From Simplicispira hankyongi (GTDB lineage: Bacteria > Pseudomonadota > Gammaproteobacteria > Burkholderiales > Burkholderiaceae_C), in NCBI RefSeq assembly GCF_003570885.1, contig NZ_QXJC01000005.1:62001-126000 (forward strand): a DNA stretch of 64,000 nt, read 5' to 3'. A model generated the notes under the pieces. The model had not been told where the DNA came from, made no database searches, and saw nothing but the letters and a program-made list of their open reading frames with translations. This document shows, one piece after another, positions 2,640-63,533 of the stretch (position 1 is its first letter; each line of letters starts with the position of its first letter). The position numbers and the translations under genes were made by a program.

Positions 2640-2709
2640 CCAGATTGGCTCAGCCGCGGCGTTGGCAGGGGGCGCCTGCACCCCGGCATAGCGGGCCTGA
2701 GTACCGCCG

Positions 2710-2775
2710 AAAATAGGAATGAAATTGGCTGCTTGCGCTTGCTGCATAAGCGCAAGCAGCTTCTTTATTGATAGC
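2710..2775. repeat. Interspersed dyad repeat, copy 1 (also a likely bidirectional terminator)
   Basis: A perfect 13-base inverted repeat (arms 2728-2740 and 2748-2760, 7-base loop) with core TGCTTGCGCTT/AAGCGCAAGCA, flanked by AT-rich sequence ending in TTGATAGC. The same pattern recurs at 19531-19586, 40126-40184, 43425-43484, 47140-47180 and 63466-63533. This copy lies between the ends of two convergent genes and is followed by TTCTTTATT, so it may also end transcripts. Confidence 0.85.
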
Positions 2776-2776
2776 G

Positions 2777-3403
2777 TCAGTGTGTGTGCGTGGCCCTGCC
2801 GCCCAGGCGCTGCACCAGCGCCGCATCGATGCCAGCAAAGGCCCGCACCTCGCCACCGCGCTGCGCGGCAAAGGCACGCGCCGCCTGCTCGGAAGCAAAC
2901 GCGGGCAGGTTGCCCGCGCGCATCGGCCCGTGGGCAGAGGAGCCGACGACGTAGAACGCGTTGGTGGCGTTGAGCATCTGCAGGCTGCCAAAATCGGTCA
3001 CGTAGCGCGCCACGATGTCGTCCGCGCTGCGTCCTGGGGTGTAGCGGCCAACGTTGTTCAGGTACATGAACAGGCTCAGAGGCGAATCAAAAAACTGCGC
3101 ATCGCCGTTGGCAAAGATGATCTGCGCCGCCCAATTGGGCGCGCGTGCGGGGTACATGCCGCAGACCGGGCAGCGCACGCCTGCGGGCACCGGCCGGGCG
3201 GCGGCCAGGGGCAAACCCGAGGCCGGGTCATAGGGCGTGGGCGGCGCCACCAGACAGACATCGCTCTCCGGCACGGGCACGGCCTTGCCGGTGATCCAGC
3301 GGCTGGCGCCTGGCAAGAACGCCAGCGCCGGCCCTGCCAGCAACACGGCGGCCAGGGCGCGCCGCGTCGGGCGCGCGAGCGGCAAGATGTGCGAGGCGTG
3401 CAT
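2777..3403 (-). CDS. NosL-like protein, second copy
   Basis: A 208-residue NosL-family protein, last gene of the nos operon. After a hydrophobic N-terminal segment (about residues 14-30, possibly an uncleaved anchor, without a clear lipobox) it carries the CPVCGM motif near residue 77 and the family core AQIIFANGDAQFFDSP, followed by the AFYVVGS and GGEVRAF strands. It ends in THTH, which could add a metal ligand. NosL proteins bind Cu(I) and support assembly of the NosZ copper sites. It lies 11 bases after nosL and differs from it in keeping the full CxxCGM motif and lacking a lipobox. Its exact function is inferred. Confidence 0.8.
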   Translation of the reverse strand: MHASHILPLARPTRRALAAVLLAGPALAFLPGASRWITGKAVPVPESDVCLVAPPTPYDPASGLPLAAARPVPAGVRCPVCGMYPARAPNWAAQIIFANGDAQFFDSPLSLFMYLNNVGRYTPGRSADDIVARYVTDFGSLQMLNATNAFYVVGSSAHGPMRAGNLPAFASEQAARAFAAQRGGEVRAFAGIDAALVQRLGGRATHTH

Positions 3404-18417: not shown

Positions 18418-19524
18418 ATGAGCCACTCCACCAACACGCCGGGCGCGGGCGCCGTTACCTGGCCTGACATCCTTCGCCAGGCGCAATTCACCCAGTGGCT
18501 CGCCCCGCTGGTCGAGCGCCACGGCCTGCGCCCCGAGACGCTGCGCCCGGCCTCGGCCGACGCCAGCTTTCGCCGCTACCTGCGCCTGGACACCCGCGTC
18601 CCCGGCGAGAGCCGCATTGTCATGGACGCGCCGCCCGATCGGGAAGACTGCGCGCCCTTCGTCCACGTGCAGGGCTTGATGCAGCGCGCCGGCTTGAACG
18701 TGCCGGACATCCTGGAATGGGACAAAGCACATGGTTTCCTGCTGCTCTCCGACCTGGGCCAGCACACCGTCATCGAACGCCTCGATGCTGCCGACCCGCA
18801 AGCGGCAAACGCCTGGTACCGGCAGGCGACGGACGTGCTGCTGCAGTGGCAATTGGCTTCGCGCCCTGGCGTGCTGCCGCCTTACGACGCGGCCTTGCTG
18901 CGCCGCGAGCTGGCGCTGTTTCCCGATTGGTACGTGGCGCAGCACCGCCAGGTGGCGCTCAGCGAGGCGCAGCAGCAAGTGTTGTCCACTGCGTTTGACC
19001 GCATCGTGGCGGAAAACCTGAGCGTGCCCAGCGTGTACGTCCACCGCGACTTCATGATGCGGAACCTGATGGCCCCTGTGGGTGAGGGCGGCCCGTTGGG
19101 CGTGCTTGATTTTCAGGATGCGGTCTATGGCCCCATCACCTACGACATTGCCAGCCTGCTGCGCGACGCCTTCATCAGTTGGGACGAAGAGTTCGTGCTC
19201 GACATCACCGTGCGCTACTGGGAGCTGGCCCGCAAGGCGGGCCTTTTGGGCCGCGCCAGCGCCAGCGGCTGGGGCGACGATTTTGGCGCGTTCTACCGCA
19301 GCGTTGAGTGGATGGGCCTGCAGCGCCACCTGAAAGTAGCTGGCATCTTTGCCCGCCTGACCCTGCGCGACGGCAAGCCCAAATACTTGGCGGATGCGCC
19401 GCGCTTCATCGGTTACCTCCGTGCCACGGCCCGCCGCTACCGGGAGCTGGGGCCTTTGGCGCGGCTACTGGACCAGATCGAAGGCGATGCGGCCCCGGTC
19501 GGTTACGCCTACGGGCGGATGTAG
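18418..19524 (+). CDS. amgK: Anomeric MurNAc/GlcNAc kinase AmgK
   Basis: 368-residue aminoglycoside-phosphotransferase-fold kinase. AmgK phosphorylates the anomeric position of MurNAc (and GlcNAc) in the cell-wall recycling route that bypasses de novo UDP-MurNAc synthesis; MurU then makes UDP-MurNAc. Seen: SADASFRRYLRL (nucleotide loop), LLLSDLGQHTVIERL, the catalytic VHRDFMMRNLM and the metal-binding LDFQDAVYGPITYD. Divergent from lptD, as in pseudomonads; its partner murU lies about 28 kb away. ATG 18418 follows a possible -10 by only a few bases, so the mRNA may be nearly leaderless. Confidence 0.92.
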   Translation: MSHSTNTPGAGAVTWPDILRQAQFTQWLAPLVERHGLRPETLRPASADASFRRYLRLDTRVPGESRIVMDAPPDREDCAPFVHVQGLMQRAGLNVPDILEWDKAHGFLLLSDLGQHTVIERLDAADPQAANAWYRQATDVLLQWQLASRPGVLPPYDAALLRRELALFPDWYVAQHRQVALSEAQQQVLSTAFDRIVAENLSVPSVYVHRDFMMRNLMAPVGEGGPLGVLDFQDAVYGPITYDIASLLRDAFISWDEEFVLDITVRYWELARKAGLLGRASASGWGDDFGAFYRSVEWMGLQRHLKVAGIFARLTLRDGKPKYLADAPRFIGYLRATARRYRELGPLARLLDQIEGDAAPVGYAYGRM

Positions 19525-19530
19525 ATTTCA

Positions 19531-19586
19531 TACAAAATAGGCCTCTAGCGCTTATCCAGTAAGCGCTAGCAGCTATTTATTTAGAA
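19531..19586. repeat. Interspersed dyad repeat, copy 2
   Basis: Perfect 10-base stem CTAGCGCTTA (19545-19554) / TAAGCGCTAG (19560-19569), 5-base loop, with AT-rich flanks (ACAAAATAG... and AGCTATTTATTTAG). It lies between amgK and rsmE and ends four bases before the rsmE ATG, so it forms the rsmE 5' leader and leaves no normal SD. Confidence 0.85.
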
Positions 19587-19589
19587 GCA

Positions 19590-20321
19590 ATGCCCCGTTT
19601 TTATTGCCCAGTCGACATGGTCAGCGGCGCTGAACTGGAGCTGCCTGCAGGCGCCGCGCGCCACGTACAAGTGCTGCGCCTGCAGCCGGGTGATGCCATC
19701 ACGCTGTTTCACGGTGGCCTGGAGGCGGCTGGCCCAAGGGGCGAGTTCGAGGCGCGCATCACCCACATGGGTCGCAGCAGCGTGCGCGCCGAAGTGGGCG
19801 CCCACCAAGCGATTGAGCGCGAGGCGGCGTGGGAGGTGCATCTGGTGGCCGGTATCACGGCGAACGAGCGCATGGACTGGCTGGTGGAAAAGGCCGCCGA
19901 GCTGGGCGCCGCCAGCATCACCCCGCTGCTGGCCGAGCGCAGCGTGCTCAAGCTCAAGGGTGAGCGCGCCGACAAAAAGCGTGCCCACTGGCAGGCCATC
20001 GCCATCGCCGCCTGTGAACAGTGCGGGCGCAACCGCGTGCCGCTGGTCGCGCAGGCGCTGGATTTGAGCGACTGGCTGGCGGGACCTGCCGGGGCTGCAC
20101 CCGCGCAGCGCCTGCTGCTGTCGCTGCGCGCAGGCAGTGTGCCTTTGAAAACCCGCCTTGCAGAGGCGGGCCCTGCGGTGTTCCTGTCAGGTCCGGAAGG
20201 CGGGCTAAGCCCCTTTGAAGAAGAGGCTGCGCTGGCGCAGGGCTTTGTTCCCGTCGGTCTTGGCCCGCGCGTGCTGCGCGCCGAGACGGCGGCGCTGGCG
20301 GCGTTGGCGCTGATGGCCTGA
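19590..20321 (+). CDS. rsmE: 16S rRNA m3U1498 methyltransferase RsmE
   Basis: 243-residue SPOUT methyltransferase that methylates N3 of U1498 in 16S rRNA. N-terminal PUA-like part (MPRFYCP, ARHVQVLRLQPGD), the central ERMDWLVEKAAELGAASITPLLAERSV-type stretch typical of the family, and the C-terminal trefoil knot with SGPEGGLSPFE and LGPRVLRAETAALAAL. Directly preceded by interspersed repeat copy 2; GAAG a few bases before the ATG is the only SD-like sequence. Confidence 0.96.
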   Translation: MPRFYCPVDMVSGAELELPAGAARHVQVLRLQPGDAITLFHGGLEAAGPRGEFEARITHMGRSSVRAEVGAHQAIEREAAWEVHLVAGITANERMDWLVEKAAELGAASITPLLAERSVLKLKGERADKKRAHWQAIAIAACEQCGRNRVPLVAQALDLSDWLAGPAGAAPAQRLLLSLRAGSVPLKTRLAEAGPAVFLSGPEGGLSPFEEEAALAQGFVPVGLGPRVLRAETAALAALALMA

Positions 20322-40125: not shown

Positions 40126-40184
40126 GCTATGAAAAAGATAGCATAAAGCGCAAATATAACAAGCGCCGACCAGCATTTTGATAC
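40126..40184. repeat. Interspersed dyad repeat, copy 3 (degenerate)
   Basis: GCTATGAAAAAGATAGC, then TAAAGCGCAAATATAACAAGCGC and CAGCATTTTGATACC: same block order as the other copies but with decayed arms. Lies in the divergent region between the GMC gene and the mlaE-like gene. Confidence 0.65.
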
Positions 40185-40291
40185 CAATTCCCGCGCCGCG
40201 TAGCTGCGGGTTCCCGTTGGCGCACGCTGCCGCTACCATGCAGCATCCTGCGACTGCCTTGCCGCATGCTCTGATTTGCCTTGTTCTTTTG

Positions 40292-41416
40292 ATGCCCGAT
40301 TCCGCTCCCCGACTGTCCCGCGACGACACGCCCCAAGGGCCGTGGATGCGCTTGCATGGGCGCTGGGGTGCGGCCGACATCGGTGCGCGCAGGCGCTGGC
40401 GAGCGCTGGCCGCCGCGCTGGTTGCGGCACCGCCTGAGACGCAGCTTGGCTGGGACCTGAGCGGTATGGCCTGGCTCGACCACGTCGGCGCACAGCTCTT
40501 GTGGAACCACTGGGGCCGCGCCTGGCCCGAGCATCTGGTGCTGGATGACACGCAGCGCTCGTTGCTGGAGCGCGTGGCCTCGCTGTCCACTGCGCCGCCA
40601 CCGCCCGAGCGCTGGTCGTTGGCCAAGCAGGTAGACGGCCTCGGTGTGCTGGTGCTGCACGCCGTCGACCATGGCAAGCGCTTGCTGATGCTGATCGGCC
40701 AGTTGCTGCTCGACAGCCTGCGTGTGCTGCGTGCGCCGCTGCGCGCGCCTTGGCGTGACGTATCGGGGCATCTGTACCGCATGGGCGCGACGGCGCTGCC
40801 CATTACCGCACTGGTCGGTTTTTTGATTGGCGTCGTGCTGGCCTACCTGATGAGTTTGCAGCTGCGCCAATTCGGCGCCGAGGCCTTCATCGTCAACATC
40901 CTGGGGATCTCGCTGATCCGCGAGCTCGGGCCCATGCTGGCGGCCATTCTCGTCGCCGGGCGCTCCGGCTCGGCCATCACCGCGCAGATTGGCGTCATGC
41001 GCGTGACCGAGGAGCTCGACGCGATGCGTGTCATGGGCATCCCGCAAGGCTTTCGCCTGGTGCTGCCGCGTGCGCTGGCGCTGGCGATTGCCATGCCGTT
41101 GCTGAGCGTGTGGACGACGCTGGCGGCACTTGCCGGCGGCATGCTGGCGGCAGACGCGGCCATGGATGTCTCGCCCGCGTACTTCTTCCAGGCGCTGCCC
41201 AATGCGGTCGGCAGCGGTAACCTGACGCTGGCCTTGTCGAAATCGGTGGTCTTTGGCATCTTGATCGCGTTGGTGGGCTGCCACTGGGGCTTACGGGTCA
41301 AGCCCAACACGCAGAGTCTGGGTGAGGGGACGACGGCCTCGGTGGTCTCGTCGATTACCGTTGTCATCATCGTGGACGCCCTGTTTGCCGTGGCGTTCAA
41401 GAACGTGGGGTTTTAG
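40292..41416 (+). CDS. MlaE-type ABC permease with N-terminal STAS-like domain
   Basis: 374-residue permease of a lipid transport system. The first 120 residues are soluble and STAS-like (WDLSGMAWLDHVGAQLLWNHW); the rest is the MlaE domain with GFLIGVVLAYLMSLQLRQFGA, LIRELGPMLAAILVAGRSGSAI, and VTEELDAMRVMGI. In E. coli Mla the STAS protein is separate (MlaB), so this is a fused form. Start ATG 40292 has no SD; longer starts would enter repeat copy 3. Operon with the ATPase, MCE protein and lipoprotein that follow. Confidence 0.9.
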   Translation: MPDSAPRLSRDDTPQGPWMRLHGRWGAADIGARRRWRALAAALVAAPPETQLGWDLSGMAWLDHVGAQLLWNHWGRAWPEHLVLDDTQRSLLERVASLSTAPPPPERWSLAKQVDGLGVLVLHAVDHGKRLLMLIGQLLLDSLRVLRAPLRAPWRDVSGHLYRMGATALPITALVGFLIGVVLAYLMSLQLRQFGAEAFIVNILGISLIRELGPMLAAILVAGRSGSAITAQIGVMRVTEELDAMRVMGIPQGFRLVLPRALALAIAMPLLSVWTTLAALAGGMLAADAAMDVSPAYFFQALPNAVGSGNLTLALSKSVVFGILIALVGCHWGLRVKPNTQSLGEGTTASVVSSITVVIIVDALFAVAFKNVGF

Positions 41417-41533: not shown

Positions 41534-41612
41534 GAGCGCGCCGGTTGCAGAGCGTGCAGGAAGACGTCCGCGGAGTCCCGGTTGCGGCGGGTATGCGGCG
41601 CGAAGGATGGAT

Positions 41613-42434
41613 ATGTCTGAGCCAACACCCGTTTCGCCCGCCGCCGCTTCCGCCGAGCCGGTGGTGCGCATCGAAGGCCTGGAAACCACCTTTGGCAAGG
41701 GGAGCGAGGCCTACACGGTGCACCGGAACCTCTCGCTTGACGTGCGGCGTGGCGAAATCCTTGCGCTGGTGGGCGGCTCGGGGACGGGCAAGACGGTGCT
41801 TTTGCGCCAGATGCTGGGGCTTTTGCAACCCACTGCGGGTCGGGTCACGGTGCTGGGCCGGCCAGCGTCCGAAATGGGCGGCGAGGGTGCGGCGAGCCGT
41901 GTCGGCATGCTGTTCCAGCACGGCGCGCTGTTCTCGGCCTTCAATGTGCTCGACAACGTGGCCTTTGCGCTGCGCGAGCAGGGTGCATTGCCAGCCGCGC
42001 TGGTGCGCGACGCGGCGCTGGTCAAACTGCAGATGGTGGGGCTGGAGCCCGAGCACGCCACGCGCATGCCAGCCGACCTGTCGGGCGGCATGATCAAGCG
42101 CGTGGCGCTGGCGCGCGCGCTCATCATGGACCCGCCGCTGTTGCTGCTCGACGAGCCCACCGCCGGGCTGGACCCGAATGGGGCCGACGAATTCTGCGCG
42201 CTGGTGCGTGAATTGCACGCCGCGTTGGGGACCACCATGGTGATGGTCACGCACGATCTCGACACGCTGTTTGCGCTCGCCACGCGCGTGGCCGTGCTGG
42301 CCGACCGCAAGGTCATCGTGACCGGAGCGCCGGCCGAGGTGGCGCGATTTCCGCACCCCTTCGTCGAGCATTATTTTTTGGGTGAGCGCGGGCGCCGCGC
42401 CATGGCGCCGGTGCAAGCCGGCAAGGAGACCTGA
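41613..42434 (+). CDS. MlaF-type ABC ATPase
   Basis: 273-residue ATPase: Walker A VGGSGTGKTVLLRQMLG, signature LSGGMIKRVALARAL, Walker B LLLLDEPTAGLDPNGADEF, switch VTHDLDTLFALATRV. The MIKR variant after LSGG is typical of MlaF/Mkl proteins that drive MCE lipid transport. The start at 41613 has GAAGG six bases upstream; an ATG at 41607 is too close to it. Its stop overlaps the MCE gene start (TGATG). Confidence 0.93.
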   Translation: MSEPTPVSPAAASAEPVVRIEGLETTFGKGSEAYTVHRNLSLDVRRGEILALVGGSGTGKTVLLRQMLGLLQPTAGRVTVLGRPASEMGGEGAASRVGMLFQHGALFSAFNVLDNVAFALREQGALPAALVRDAALVKLQMVGLEPEHATRMPADLSGGMIKRVALARALIMDPPLLLLDEPTAGLDPNGADEFCALVRELHAALGTTMVMVTHDLDTLFALATRVAVLADRKVIVTGAPAEVARFPHPFVEHYFLGERGRRAMAPVQAGKET

Positions 42435-43414
42435 TGGAAAACAAGTCCCACGCACTCGCTGCCGGGCTGTTCGTGCTGGTGGTCAGCGCCCTGGTGGTGG
42501 CTCTGGCCATGTGGCTCACGCGCGACAACGGCAACTACAAACTCTACGAGCTCACCACCCGCGACGGCGTCAGCGGCCTGCAGCCCCAAGCCGCCGTGCG
42601 CTACAAGGGCGTGGCGGTGGGCAAGGTCATGCACATCGGCTTTGACCCGCAGGTCAGCGGCAATGTGCTGGTCCGCATCGCCGTGGACGACGACGCGCCC
42701 ATCACCCCCACGACCTTTGCTACCCTGGGCTACCAGGGCGTTACGGGGCTGTCGTACATCCTGCTCGACGACGCCGGCAAGGCCCATCCGCCCCTTCCCC
42801 CTGGCCCGAGCGGCCTGCCGCGCCTGCCGCTGCATTCATCGCCCTTTGCACAGCTTTCCGAGCAAGGCCCGGTCATCCTGGGCCAGGTGCAGGAGATGAC
42901 CCAGCGCGTCAACCAATTGCTGTCCGACGACAACCAGAAGCGCTTCTCCGATGCCCTGATCCACATTGGCGCGGCGGCGGCCAGTGTCGATGCGCTCACA
43001 CGCCGGATCGACCGCAGCGTGACCGAGGGCCTCGACCCCGCCCTGGCCGCGCTGCCCACGCTGGCCAAGGACGCCAGCGGCGCCGTGCAGTCGCTGAAAA
43101 AGGCCGGCGATCAGGTTTCGGTGATGGCCGGTGCGTTCGGCCAGACCGCGCAGCGCCTCAATGCCCCCGGCGGCCCCATCGAGCAGGCCTCGCGCGGGGT
43201 GGAAACTTTCTCGCAAGCGGCCGACCGGCTCAAGACCAGTACGCTGCCCAGCCTGGAGCGTGCTGCCGACGATACCGGCCGCGCGGCGCGCCAGGTGGCG
43301 CGCACGGCCGCAGACGTCAGCGCCAACCCCCAGGCCTTTATTTACGGTTCCGGGCCGGCCAGTCCGGGGCCGGGGGAACCGGGTTTTGTCGCCCCTGCCC
43401 ACAACCCGCAGTGA
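42434..43414 (+). CDS. MCE-domain protein, MlaD/PqiB-like
   Basis: 326 residues: one N-terminal membrane span (HALAAGLFVLVVSALVVALAMW), an MCE domain (YELTTRDGVSGLQPQAAVRY, KGVAVGKVMHIGFDP, LLDDAG), then a long helical C-terminal part that could extend into the periplasm (ERAADDTGRAARQVARTA). It binds and carries lipids between membranes. Overlaps the ATPase stop by one base and is followed after seven bases by the lipoprotein. Confidence 0.93.
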   Translation: MENKSHALAAGLFVLVVSALVVALAMWLTRDNGNYKLYELTTRDGVSGLQPQAAVRYKGVAVGKVMHIGFDPQVSGNVLVRIAVDDDAPITPTTFATLGYQGVTGLSYILLDDAGKAHPPLPPGPSGLPRLPLHSSPFAQLSEQGPVILGQVQEMTQRVNQLLSDDNQKRFSDALIHIGAAAASVDALTRRIDRSVTEGLDPALAALPTLAKDASGAVQSLKKAGDQVSVMAGAFGQTAQRLNAPGGPIEQASRGVETFSQAADRLKTSTLPSLERAADDTGRAARQVARTAADVSANPQAFIYGSGPASPGPGEPGFVAPAHNPQ

Positions 43415-43421
43415 GTGTGCC

Positions 43422-44096
43422 ATGAATACTATTAAATCGATAGCTGTCAGCGCAGTACGTATAAGCGCTGGAGCCATTTTTTTCTTGAATTTCCTGGCCG
43501 CTTGCTCGGCCTTGCCGGCGCCGCCCGTGCATCCCGTGGTGTACGACTTCGGCCCGGGCGCCAGCCGGGTGGCGGCGCAGGGTGCGGCACTGGCACCCCA
43601 GCGCGCGCCGCTGGTGCTGGCCGATGTGGAGAGCCCCGGTCTGCCAGAGGGCAGCACCGCCCTGAACTACCGCCTGGGCTATGACGATGCCCAGCAACTG
43701 CGCGCCTACCAGCGTGCCCGCTGGAGCCAGCCGCCGGGCCAGCTGGTGCAGCAAAGTGTGGCCGTCGAACTGAGCGCCGAGCGCGCCGTGCTTGGGTACC
43801 GTGCGGCGCGCGAAGCCGCGCGCGAAGGCAACGGCGGCCTGCTGGTGCTGCGGCTGGAGCTGGAAGAATTCAGCCAGGTCTTCAGCTCCGCCAGCCAAAG
43901 CGAGGGCGTGCTGCGCCTGCGTGCCACGCTCGCCGAGCCCACACCCCAGGGCGAGCGCCTGCGGGCCCAGCGCGTCTTCGAAGCGCGCCAGCCGGCCCCC
44001 AGCGCCGACGCGGCGGGCGGCAGCGCTGCCTTGGCGCAGGCGGCGCGCCAGGTGGCGCGCGACGTGCGTGCCTGGGTGAATCAGACAGCGCCCTGA
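43422..44096 (+). CDS. ABC-type transport auxiliary lipoprotein (PqiC-like) with repeat-derived signal peptide
   Basis: 224-residue lipoprotein; lipobox FLAAC with Cys at residue 28, then VVYDFGP, YRLGYDDAQQLRAYQRARWSQPPGQL and a C-terminal LAQAARQVARDVRAWV, the layout of the ABC_trans_aux/PqiC family that works with MCE proteins at the outer membrane. Codons 2-21 are made of interspersed repeat copy 4, so most of the signal peptide (NTIKSIAVSAVRISAGAIFF) is repeat sequence. It is rich in Ile and Ala and still hydrophobic enough to function. AGTGTGCC before the ATG is a weak SD. Confidence 0.85.
   Translation: MNTIKSIAVSAVRISAGAIFFLNFLAACSALPAPPVHPVVYDFGPGASRVAAQGAALAPQRAPLVLADVESPGLPEGSTALNYRLGYDDAQQLRAYQRARWSQPPGQLVQQSVAVELSAERAVLGYRAAREAAREGNGGLLVLRLELEEFSQVFSSASQSEGVLRLRATLAEPTPQGERLRAQRVFEARQPAPSADAAGGSAALAQAARQVARDVRAWVNQTAP
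43425..43484. repeat. Interspersed dyad repeat, copy 4, inside a coding sequence
   Basis: AATACTATTAAATCGATAGC, TGTCAGCGCAG, TATAAGCGCTGGAGCC and ATTTTTTTCTT follow the order of the other copies (TTGATAGC, left arm, AAGCGC right arm, T-rich end). It supplies codons 2-21 of the lipoprotein gene. Confidence 0.8.
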
Positions 44097-46641: not shown

Positions 46642-47468
46642 GGTGAAAAGGTTTCGGCGTTGAGGTCGGCCAGGCGCTGCGGTGTGCCTACATCGACCCA
46701 GCGGCCAGTGTGAAGTTCAGCCTGTACCCGGCCATTGTCCATAGCCCGGCGCAGCAGTGGCGCCAGCGCTGCGCGCACCCCTTGCGGGTTGCCGGGCGCG
46801 ATGTCGCACCACGGCGGGGCCAACAGATCGCGGTGCAGCAAGGCGACGGTGCTGTAGGTGTAGCGGGGCTGCGGGTTGCCGTCCGGCAGGCTCAAAGCCA
46901 AGCCGGTGTCCGACAGACCAAAATCGCCGCGCGGATTGTGCGCCGGGTTGGGTACCAGCCACAGGCGCGCCAGTGCGCCGCTGGTGCGAAAGGTGCGCAC
47001 GGCCGCGGCGTCGAAGCGGAACCCGGGCATGAACACATCGCCCGCCGCCAGCCAGAACACGTCGGCGTCCAGCAGCGGCAGGGCGCGCGCAATGCCGCCT
47101 GCGGTTTCCAGCGCACCGCCGAAATCACGGCCTTCCTCGGAATATAAAATTGATAGCTGCTTGCGCTTATCTGCATTGCCTTGGCGGCCGAAAACACTTC
47201 CAAATTGCTGCGCAATCTTCTCGCCCAGCCAGGCGGTGTTGATGACCACGCGCGGCACCCCGGCACGCGCCAGCGCCTGCAGGTGCCAGGCCAGCAGCGG
47301 CTGGCCGTGGACCGGCAGCAGGGGCTTGGGTGTGGTGTCGGTCAGCGGGCGCATGCGCTCGCCGCGGCCGGCCGCCAGCAGCAGGGCAGGGGCTTGTTCG
47401 GCACCGTGGCCGCGTGCCGCCGCCGCGCCTGCGGACGAAGGAAATGAGGGGGGCAAGAGGAGGGTCAC
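46638..47468 (-). CDS. murU: N-acetylmuramate-1-phosphate uridylyltransferase MurU, with repeat insertion
   Basis: 276-residue nucleotidyltransferase that makes UDP-MurNAc from MurNAc-1-P, the product of AmgK. Signature LLLAAGRGERMRPLTDTTPK, VVINTAWLGEKI, GALETAGGIARALPLL and WVDVGTPQRL. The start is GTG 47468, which gives a 30-residue low-complexity N-terminal extension before the first strand; a later non-ATG start is possible. Oddity: relative to the family, about ten extra residues (RQGNADKRKQ) precede LSILYSEEG; they are encoded by half of the interspersed dyad repeat (47140-47180). The rest of the fold is intact. pepP follows by ATGA overlap. Confidence 0.9.
   Translation of the reverse strand: MTLLLPPSFPSSAGAAAARGHGAEQAPALLLAAGRGERMRPLTDTTPKPLLPVHGQPLLAWHLQALARAGVPRVVINTAWLGEKIAQQFGSVFGRQGNADKRKQLSILYSEEGRDFGGALETAGGIARALPLLDADVFWLAAGDVFMPGFRFDAAAVRTFRTSGALARLWLVPNPAHNPRGDFGLSDTGLALSLPDGNPQPRYTYSTVALLHRDLLAPPWCDIAPGNPQGVRAALAPLLRRAMDNGRVQAELHTGRWVDVGTPQRLADLNAETFSP
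47140..47180. repeat. Interspersed dyad repeat, copy 5 (half element) inside murU
   Basis: Plus strand AATATAAAATTGATAGCTGC followed by TTGCGCTTAT matches the left flank and arm of copy 1 (TGCTTGCGCTT); the right arm is missing. It is an AT-rich island in a GC-rich gene and codes for NADKRKQLSILY. Confidence 0.8.
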
Positions 47469-63313: not shown

Positions 63314-63465
63314 GGCGAACTCCTGGTTGGGCGCCACCCATGCGCAGGTGGCCACGCTGCGCAGATGGGGTGCCTTGCGTGCAAGAAAAGGCGCAGTGTG
63401 TGGAACGCTGCAGTGCGCGGGCCAGGACAGCACGGCGCAGCGCAGGACGCTGCAGGCAGCGAAAT

Positions 63466-63533
63466 TTTATAGAAAATAAGACGATAGCGCTTTATACATA
63501 AGCGCATACAGCTATATAAACAATAGCAAAATA
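63466..63533. repeat. Interspersed dyad repeat, copy 6
   Basis: TTTTATAGAAAATAAGACGATAGCGC, TTTATACATAAGCGC and CATACAGCTATATAAACAATAGC: same order as the other copies, with a weaker stem. Ends three bases before the stop of the MFS gene. Confidence 0.7.

Follow-up and report, generated by a model that had tools for sequence, protein, structure and literature searches.

A dispersed ~66-bp DNA motif encodes the predicted signal peptide of a PqiC-like lipoprotein in Simplicispira hankyongi

DNA uptake sequences (DUS in Neisseriaceae, USS in Pasteurellaceae) are roughly 9–12 bp long, occur in hundreds of chromosomal copies with genic copies in favoured frames, and are gained and lost by lineage. 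REP sequences of the REP/RAYT type are short, palindromic and mostly extragenic, are also present in hundreds of copies, and carry a conserved tetranucleotide at the foot of the hairpin. Rickettsia palindromic elements are insertions that sit in frame within a large number of coding genes and lengthen the protein. Within reading frames, known uptake motifs occur preferentially in one orientation, and those of Pasteurellaceae also favour gene ends (PMC2346458). For the enterobacterial repeats RU-1, RU-2 and RU-3, similar proteins from other genera have signal sequences that are unrelated to the repeat (PMC2759123). BRE, a dispersed repeat of Bordetella and Comamonadaceae with some copies in coding sequences, is described in PMC3110155 as ~90 bp long, 69% GC, often tandem and present in up to 29 copies.

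The motif analysed here shares with DUS and USS the copy number, the favoured frames and the gain and loss by lineage, but is ~66 bp long, belongs to another family and is at most a putative uptake sequence. Unlike RU-1/2/3, it is common to orthologues across the genus and occurs in several genes. It resembles the Rickettsia elements in being a palindromic repeat in frame within genes, but at least two copies (in ProA and LpxB) are length-neutral, and it differs from REP/RAYT in that Y1_Tnp genes do not track it and conserved blocks extend well beyond the hairpin. Its length, its GC content of 40% and up to 462 core matches in a genome set it apart from BRE as described in PMC3110155, the comparison being with that description and not with BRE's letters. 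Literature searched by motif string and keywords gave no published name for the motif; the keywords led to Delihas and BRE. Our preferred reading, which we hold to be likely, is a motif at the DNA level, perhaps driven in the manner of uptake sequences, that persists in those genes which tolerate its translation.

The locus was analysed within a window of 64,000 nucleotides, the whole stretch of DNA examined (contig NZ_QXJC01000005.1, positions 62,001 to 126,000). The gene row and the motif copy are as follows.

40178..41416, + strand: MlaE-like permease (Pfam PF02405, 230 bits)
41595..42434, + strand: ABC ATPase, MlaF-like, start codon manually assigned (Pfam PF00005, 110 bits)
42434..43414, + strand: MlaD/MCE protein (Pfam PF02470, 46.7 bits)
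43422..44096, + strand: PqiC-like ABC-type transport auxiliary lipoprotein gene, 224 amino acids plus stop (ORF and translation; Pfam PF03886, ABC_trans_aux, 36.9 bits against a cutoff of 26)
43422..43502, + strand: predicted lipoprotein signal peptide, residues 1–27, with lipobox L25-A-A-C28 and Cys codon at 43503–43505 (read from the letters, no signal-peptide predictor)
43425..43495, + strand: interspersed ~66-bp motif copy coding signal-peptide codons 2–25 of PqiC (nhmmer 55.5 bits with the 68-copy model, 55.2 bits with the 63-copy model)

The PF03886 match lies above its cutoff and places the protein among the PqiC-like proteins, downstream of the MlaE, ABC ATPase and MlaD genes. In this Mla-type row, the LAAC directly after the motif marks a predicted lipoprotein by the lipobox rule for lipoprotein signal peptides. 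The copy matches profile positions 4–74 of a model from which the window copy had been left out. The original prediction had assigned codons 2–21 to a repeat copy; that a repeat codes for the signal peptide was borne out at 55 bits, and the span was found to be longer, reaching into codon 25. The NFLAACS following the repeat had been taken as native-looking, a view given up here, as the LNF stretch is also motif and the span ends just before LAAC. As a protein feature, the signal peptide is probably an ordinary Sec/lipoprotein export signal, and the DNA coding for it is taken up by a motif found throughout the genome.

The 18-base core was searched in this genome (3.7 Mb), as the original prediction had proposed for the repeat, and further copies were abundant: 383 matches at up to two mismatches (reversed control, 0) and 518 places at up to three (reversed control, 5). 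By strand, the copies numbered 184 and 199, and they lay in and between genes, so that the motif is over-represented and strand-symmetric on the chromosome in the manner of an uptake sequence. A profile HMM was built from 68 own-genome copies, with 12 coding-looking copies and the window copy left out; L195, L198, L210, L218 and L245, which lie inside genes, were part of this model and were removed in a retraining on 63 copies, with the same picture. The own-genome sample that was read comprised the first 80 of the matches listed with an exact core, with ~1.5 kb on each side, and by manual tally 69 of these 80 lay outside genes or merely touched gene ends, which was counted against the preferred reading. 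Five places in the window scored above 12 bits by the HMM, overlapping opposite-strand matches of the palindrome not being counted; those other than the PqiC copy, together with a degenerate site at or below 12 bits, are given below.

2707..2777, − strand: weak motif copy (nhmmer 27.2 bits)
19522..19592, − strand: near-consensus motif copy (nhmmer 64.3 bits)
40130..40190, + strand: degenerate motif between two genes, limits approximate (12 bits or less in the window; alignment)
47143..47170, + strand: incomplete motif copy within coding sequence, at the same place and with no indel in four other genomes (nhmmer 19.5 bits; alignment)
63460..63529, − strand: weak motif copy (nhmmer 24.9 bits)

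At the place of the degenerate site, stronger copies were found in G011 (25.9 bits) and G025 (18.4 bits).

The copy profile consists of the blocks GCTAT, AAA-or-TTT, ATAGCT, GCGC, ATAAGCGCT, AGAGGC, TTT and AAATTT, with 40% GC and a palindromic core flanked by tracts that can be either AAA or TTT. No stem covariation was found at variable stem positions, the core being fixed by the choice of exact-core copies, and eight motif loci gave no Rfam match at the gathering threshold. A structured RNA appears unlikely from the Rfam result for these eight loci and the lack of covariation outside the core, covariation inside it being invisible in exact-core copies. In appearance the motif is closer to a DNA site recognised by a protein. 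No GTAG or GGAG tetranucleotide was seen by eye in its consensus. Within the preferred reading, the main alternative to an uptake sequence is a site for an abundant chromosome-organising or regulatory protein, with signal-peptide copies tolerated or regulatory near gene starts. We regard this form as possible but doubtful: the length and block structure of the motif, in which no stem covariation was detected, the position of most copies outside genes and the intergenic site at 40130..40190, whose flanks diverge more than the site itself (by eye), are consistent with it, but copies inside conserved enzymes are hard to explain on this basis and there is no candidate protein.

For the age of the motif at pqiC, 73 of 94 orthologue rows were kept after removal of 12 duplicates, 8 late starts and 1 short row. 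PqiC relatives with 79–91% identity have the signal peptide MNTMKNIAVSALRI, and some at 50–60% still have one like MKTIKTIAAGACKTSAIAVF. The motif scored at least 14 bits in 25 of the 73 distinct upstream regions, and for each of these 25 the real score was higher than that of all 50 synonymous shuffles; the resemblance therefore lies in the DNA and not in the protein alone. The first shuffles were made without regions having an upstream stop (such as L070 and L079); a repeat with stop-safe shuffles and the retrained 63-copy model again gave 25 of 73. Hydrophobic signal peptides are low in complexity and could by coincidence merely look like a translated repeat, a suggestion that the shuffles leave with a negligible probability. 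The other 48 regions fell below 14 bits, including Nitrosomonas, most Ramlibacter and Curvibacter and four Acidovorax rows, and many of these rows have short ordinary signal peptides. Comparison of orthologue signal peptides, proposed as a check on the original prediction, largely gave a result that had been named as refuting it: related genomes share the motif-coded signal peptide, though distant ones lack it. The motif is old at pqiC on the evidence of these alignments. A recent insertion in this species was rejected on the orthologues with the motif at the same place, and the original proposal that a mobile repeat had become an export signal is not supported if taken as a recent event; an ancient insertion at pqiC itself may have occurred. 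Two observations were counted against the preferred reading: signal peptides of motif-free PqiC relatives are often shorter, which fits insertion, and G009 has 189 copies in its genome, yet its pqiC lacks the motif.

Codon usage was compared between motif spans and mature parts in carriers. Of the Ile codons, ATA made up 131 of 234 within the motif and 14 of 834 in the mature parts, and same-residue codon identity (motif/mature) was 0.833/0.627 for PqiC, 0.740/0.637 for SCO1, 0.798/0.705 for GspD and 0.886/0.643 for M16. Both tests are partly circular, since motif score decided which rows counted as carriers and ATA is part of the core, although carriers are most of the rows; the cells are also non-independent, and the shuffles are cleaner. 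Stricter limits were applied in the ATA test (22 PqiC rows; PqiC of G001 and G015 absent), and G016 PqiC fell below 14 bits in its scoring while reaching 14.9–15.7 bits in that of the shuffle test. Among 63 non-signal copies, the signal-peptide frame was open over residues 3–22 in 44, vs 0 and 4 for the other frames of the same strand and 23, 15 and 3 for those of the opposite strand. The open frame of the motif strand reads roughly xIKxIAxSAxxISAxGxF, basic and then small and hydrophobic. The mean Kyte–Doolittle value of the 14-residue core was 1.28 in PqiC, 1.67 in GspD, 1.96 in M16 and 2.15 in SCO1, vs 0.83 in 57 stop-free non-signal copies. Since signal-peptide cores are more hydrophobic than non-signal copies, export selection has apparently adjusted the translation of the motif and raised its hydropathy in signal peptides.

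Eleven of the 80 sampled copies were fully coding (manual tally), four in signal peptides and seven internal. All four are used in the same frame, at the N-terminus of proteins of exported type, namely PqiC, GspD, an SCO1/SenC lipoprotein and an M16 peptidase. The chance of 4 in 11 falling in signal peptides is 4.5e-6, 8e-5 or 1.6e-3 at an assumed signal-peptide share of coding DNA of 1.1, 2.3 or 5%, respectively. Signal peptides scored at least 14 bits in 22 of 26 genus rows for SCO1 (the four exceptions include a paralogue), 22 of 25 for GspD and, counting three carriers from other genera, 24 of 27 rows for M16. A pattern search of 399 family genomes matched 29 and returned 30 loci. By manual tally 14 of these have a long exported-looking ORF starting with the motif (M16, cupredoxin, PqiC and one that we take to be DUF1223-like), and 16 have short or uncertain ORFs; Pfam was run for L150, L153 and L157. 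Eighteen further stretches, six of them run against Pfam, comprised 8 M16 or cupredoxin genes (three already seen), 4 of DUF1289 type or ABC ATPase and 6 without a gene. In L153 and L377 (G321), an M16 ORF has two consecutive motif-like stretches ahead of the mature part.

Copies were also found inside own-genome genes of UvrA, TlyA, HAD, HemD and HoxF/NuoF type (L193, L196, L195, L210 and L218). In four genomes a motif-coded N-terminus precedes DUF1289, with uncertain start codons (L364 in G000, L147, L373 and L374; Pfam for L364 and L373), and in L370 (G249) an ABC ATPase, expected to be cytosolic, begins with residues coded by the motif; both were counted against the preferred reading. Together with the copies in UvrA, TlyA, HemD, HoxF/NuoF, HAD, ProA and LpxB, they rule out confinement to signal peptides, and we judge it likely that coding copies lie in signal peptides above all, yet not exclusively. 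At L213, L214, L225 and L242 (G000), genes have their last codons or stop codon at or within a copy of the motif. Unrelated proteins here can have signal peptides that look alike through a shared DNA motif and not through protein ancestry, which calls for caution.

Three copies (intergenic, coding and signal-peptide) were compared across five genomes and occupied orthologous places, with substitutions and no indel. The ProA copy covers motif positions 4–66 (40.2 bits, retrained model) and the LpxB copy positions 6–52 (38.6 bits, retrained model); each showed no indel against one solved homologue, and in both cases (L245 and L198 for proA and lpxB, G000) gene and motif run on opposite strands. 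TlyA has ~13 extra residues at the motif relative to a solved homologue, which fits insertion and was counted against the preferred reading. These data bear on the original view of a mobile repeat, set further back in time as a REP/MITE-like element, in which short palindromic insertions, some in frame at gene starts, became signal peptides. The interspersed, mostly intergenic distribution, the palindromic core, the TlyA residues and the often shorter motif-free PqiC signal peptides agree with such an element, but the lack of indels at the three orthologous sites and in ProA and LpxB speaks against it, as do the Y1_Tnp counts and the lost-clade lengths below, and we consider it improbable.

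Under the preferred reading, a sequence-specific process on DNA, like that maintaining DNA uptake sequences, would keep the motif up, and copies would arise and persist in place. Coding copies would survive where translation is tolerated, the mostly open basic-then-hydrophobic frame would suit signal peptides, and export selection would make that frame more hydrophobic there. A motif at the DNA level may in this way dictate part of the proteome, with signal peptides as its favoured coding refuge.

Copy numbers in the genus were 1, 0 and 3 in G001, G015 and G022, and 30–383 in the other 23 genomes. None of the four genes (SCO1, GspD, M16 and PqiC) has the motif in these three genomes; the three are the motif-free rows among the SCO1, GspD and M16 orthologues, joined by G009 in PqiC. 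In a midpoint-rooted tree of one gene (mature M16 protein, one fragmentary G015 row), G001, G015 and G022 are nested in the genus, beside G016 (30 copies; 92/89) and then G003 (152 copies; 95/93), and three rows from other genera are motif carriers. From this nesting and the carriers in other genera, the motif was most likely lost genome-wide in the G001/G015/G022 clade. The four proteins and their signal peptides persist in the clade without the motif. Up to the point of comparison, its M16 and SCO1 signal peptides measure 28 and 30 residues, exactly as in carriers (starts manually assigned), and that of GspD is within 1–3 residues, which speaks against a mobile element; that of PqiC differs in length. 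The motif-free clade is a natural experiment separating the need of the protein from what the DNA imposes. More tentatively, part of the Comamonadaceae may carry an undescribed ~66-bp uptake-like or drive-maintained sequence that rewrote the export signals of a number of conserved proteins, with one lineage showing relaxation after loss of the drive.

Y1_Tnp genes did not track copy number in 26 genus genomes: in G010, 127 copies occur although no Y1_Tnp match was found, and G001, G015 and G022 have 4, 4 and 3 Y1_Tnp with 1, 0 and 3 copies. RAYT mobilisation was rejected on this lack of correlation. A Y1_Tnp-like gene lies at G000:C13:426412-426747, and many genus members have similar weak matches whose number is unrelated to motif copies. 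ComEC was found in G000 and in 171 of 180 family genomes, a set outside which G001, G015 and G022 fall; being near-ubiquitous, it does not discriminate and was set aside as a driver marker. No driver was identified among these candidates (Y1/RAYT and ComEC).

Across the 180 family genomes, 60 had any match and 28 had at least 10 (manual count; reversed controls up to 3 per genome). The highest core-match count in one genome was 462, and copy number was patchy within genera. The motif was in 0 of 50,697 phage records and 3 of 72,556 plasmid records. This rarity, the patchy copy number with one genome-wide loss, the strand-symmetric chromosomal copies, the in-place copies in genes and the AAA-or-TTT tracts around the core are consistent with the other form of the preferred reading, a DNA uptake sequence that a receptor of the competence pilus would recognise and that biased uptake and recombination would accumulate. 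Given a motif far longer than known ones, a family other than the known two and an uninformative ComEC, such a sequence appears somewhat unlikely; if it were an uptake signal, the phenomenon would reach a further bacterial family. Ten viral contigs (L354–L363) contain the exact extended core, possibly in host flanks of proviruses.
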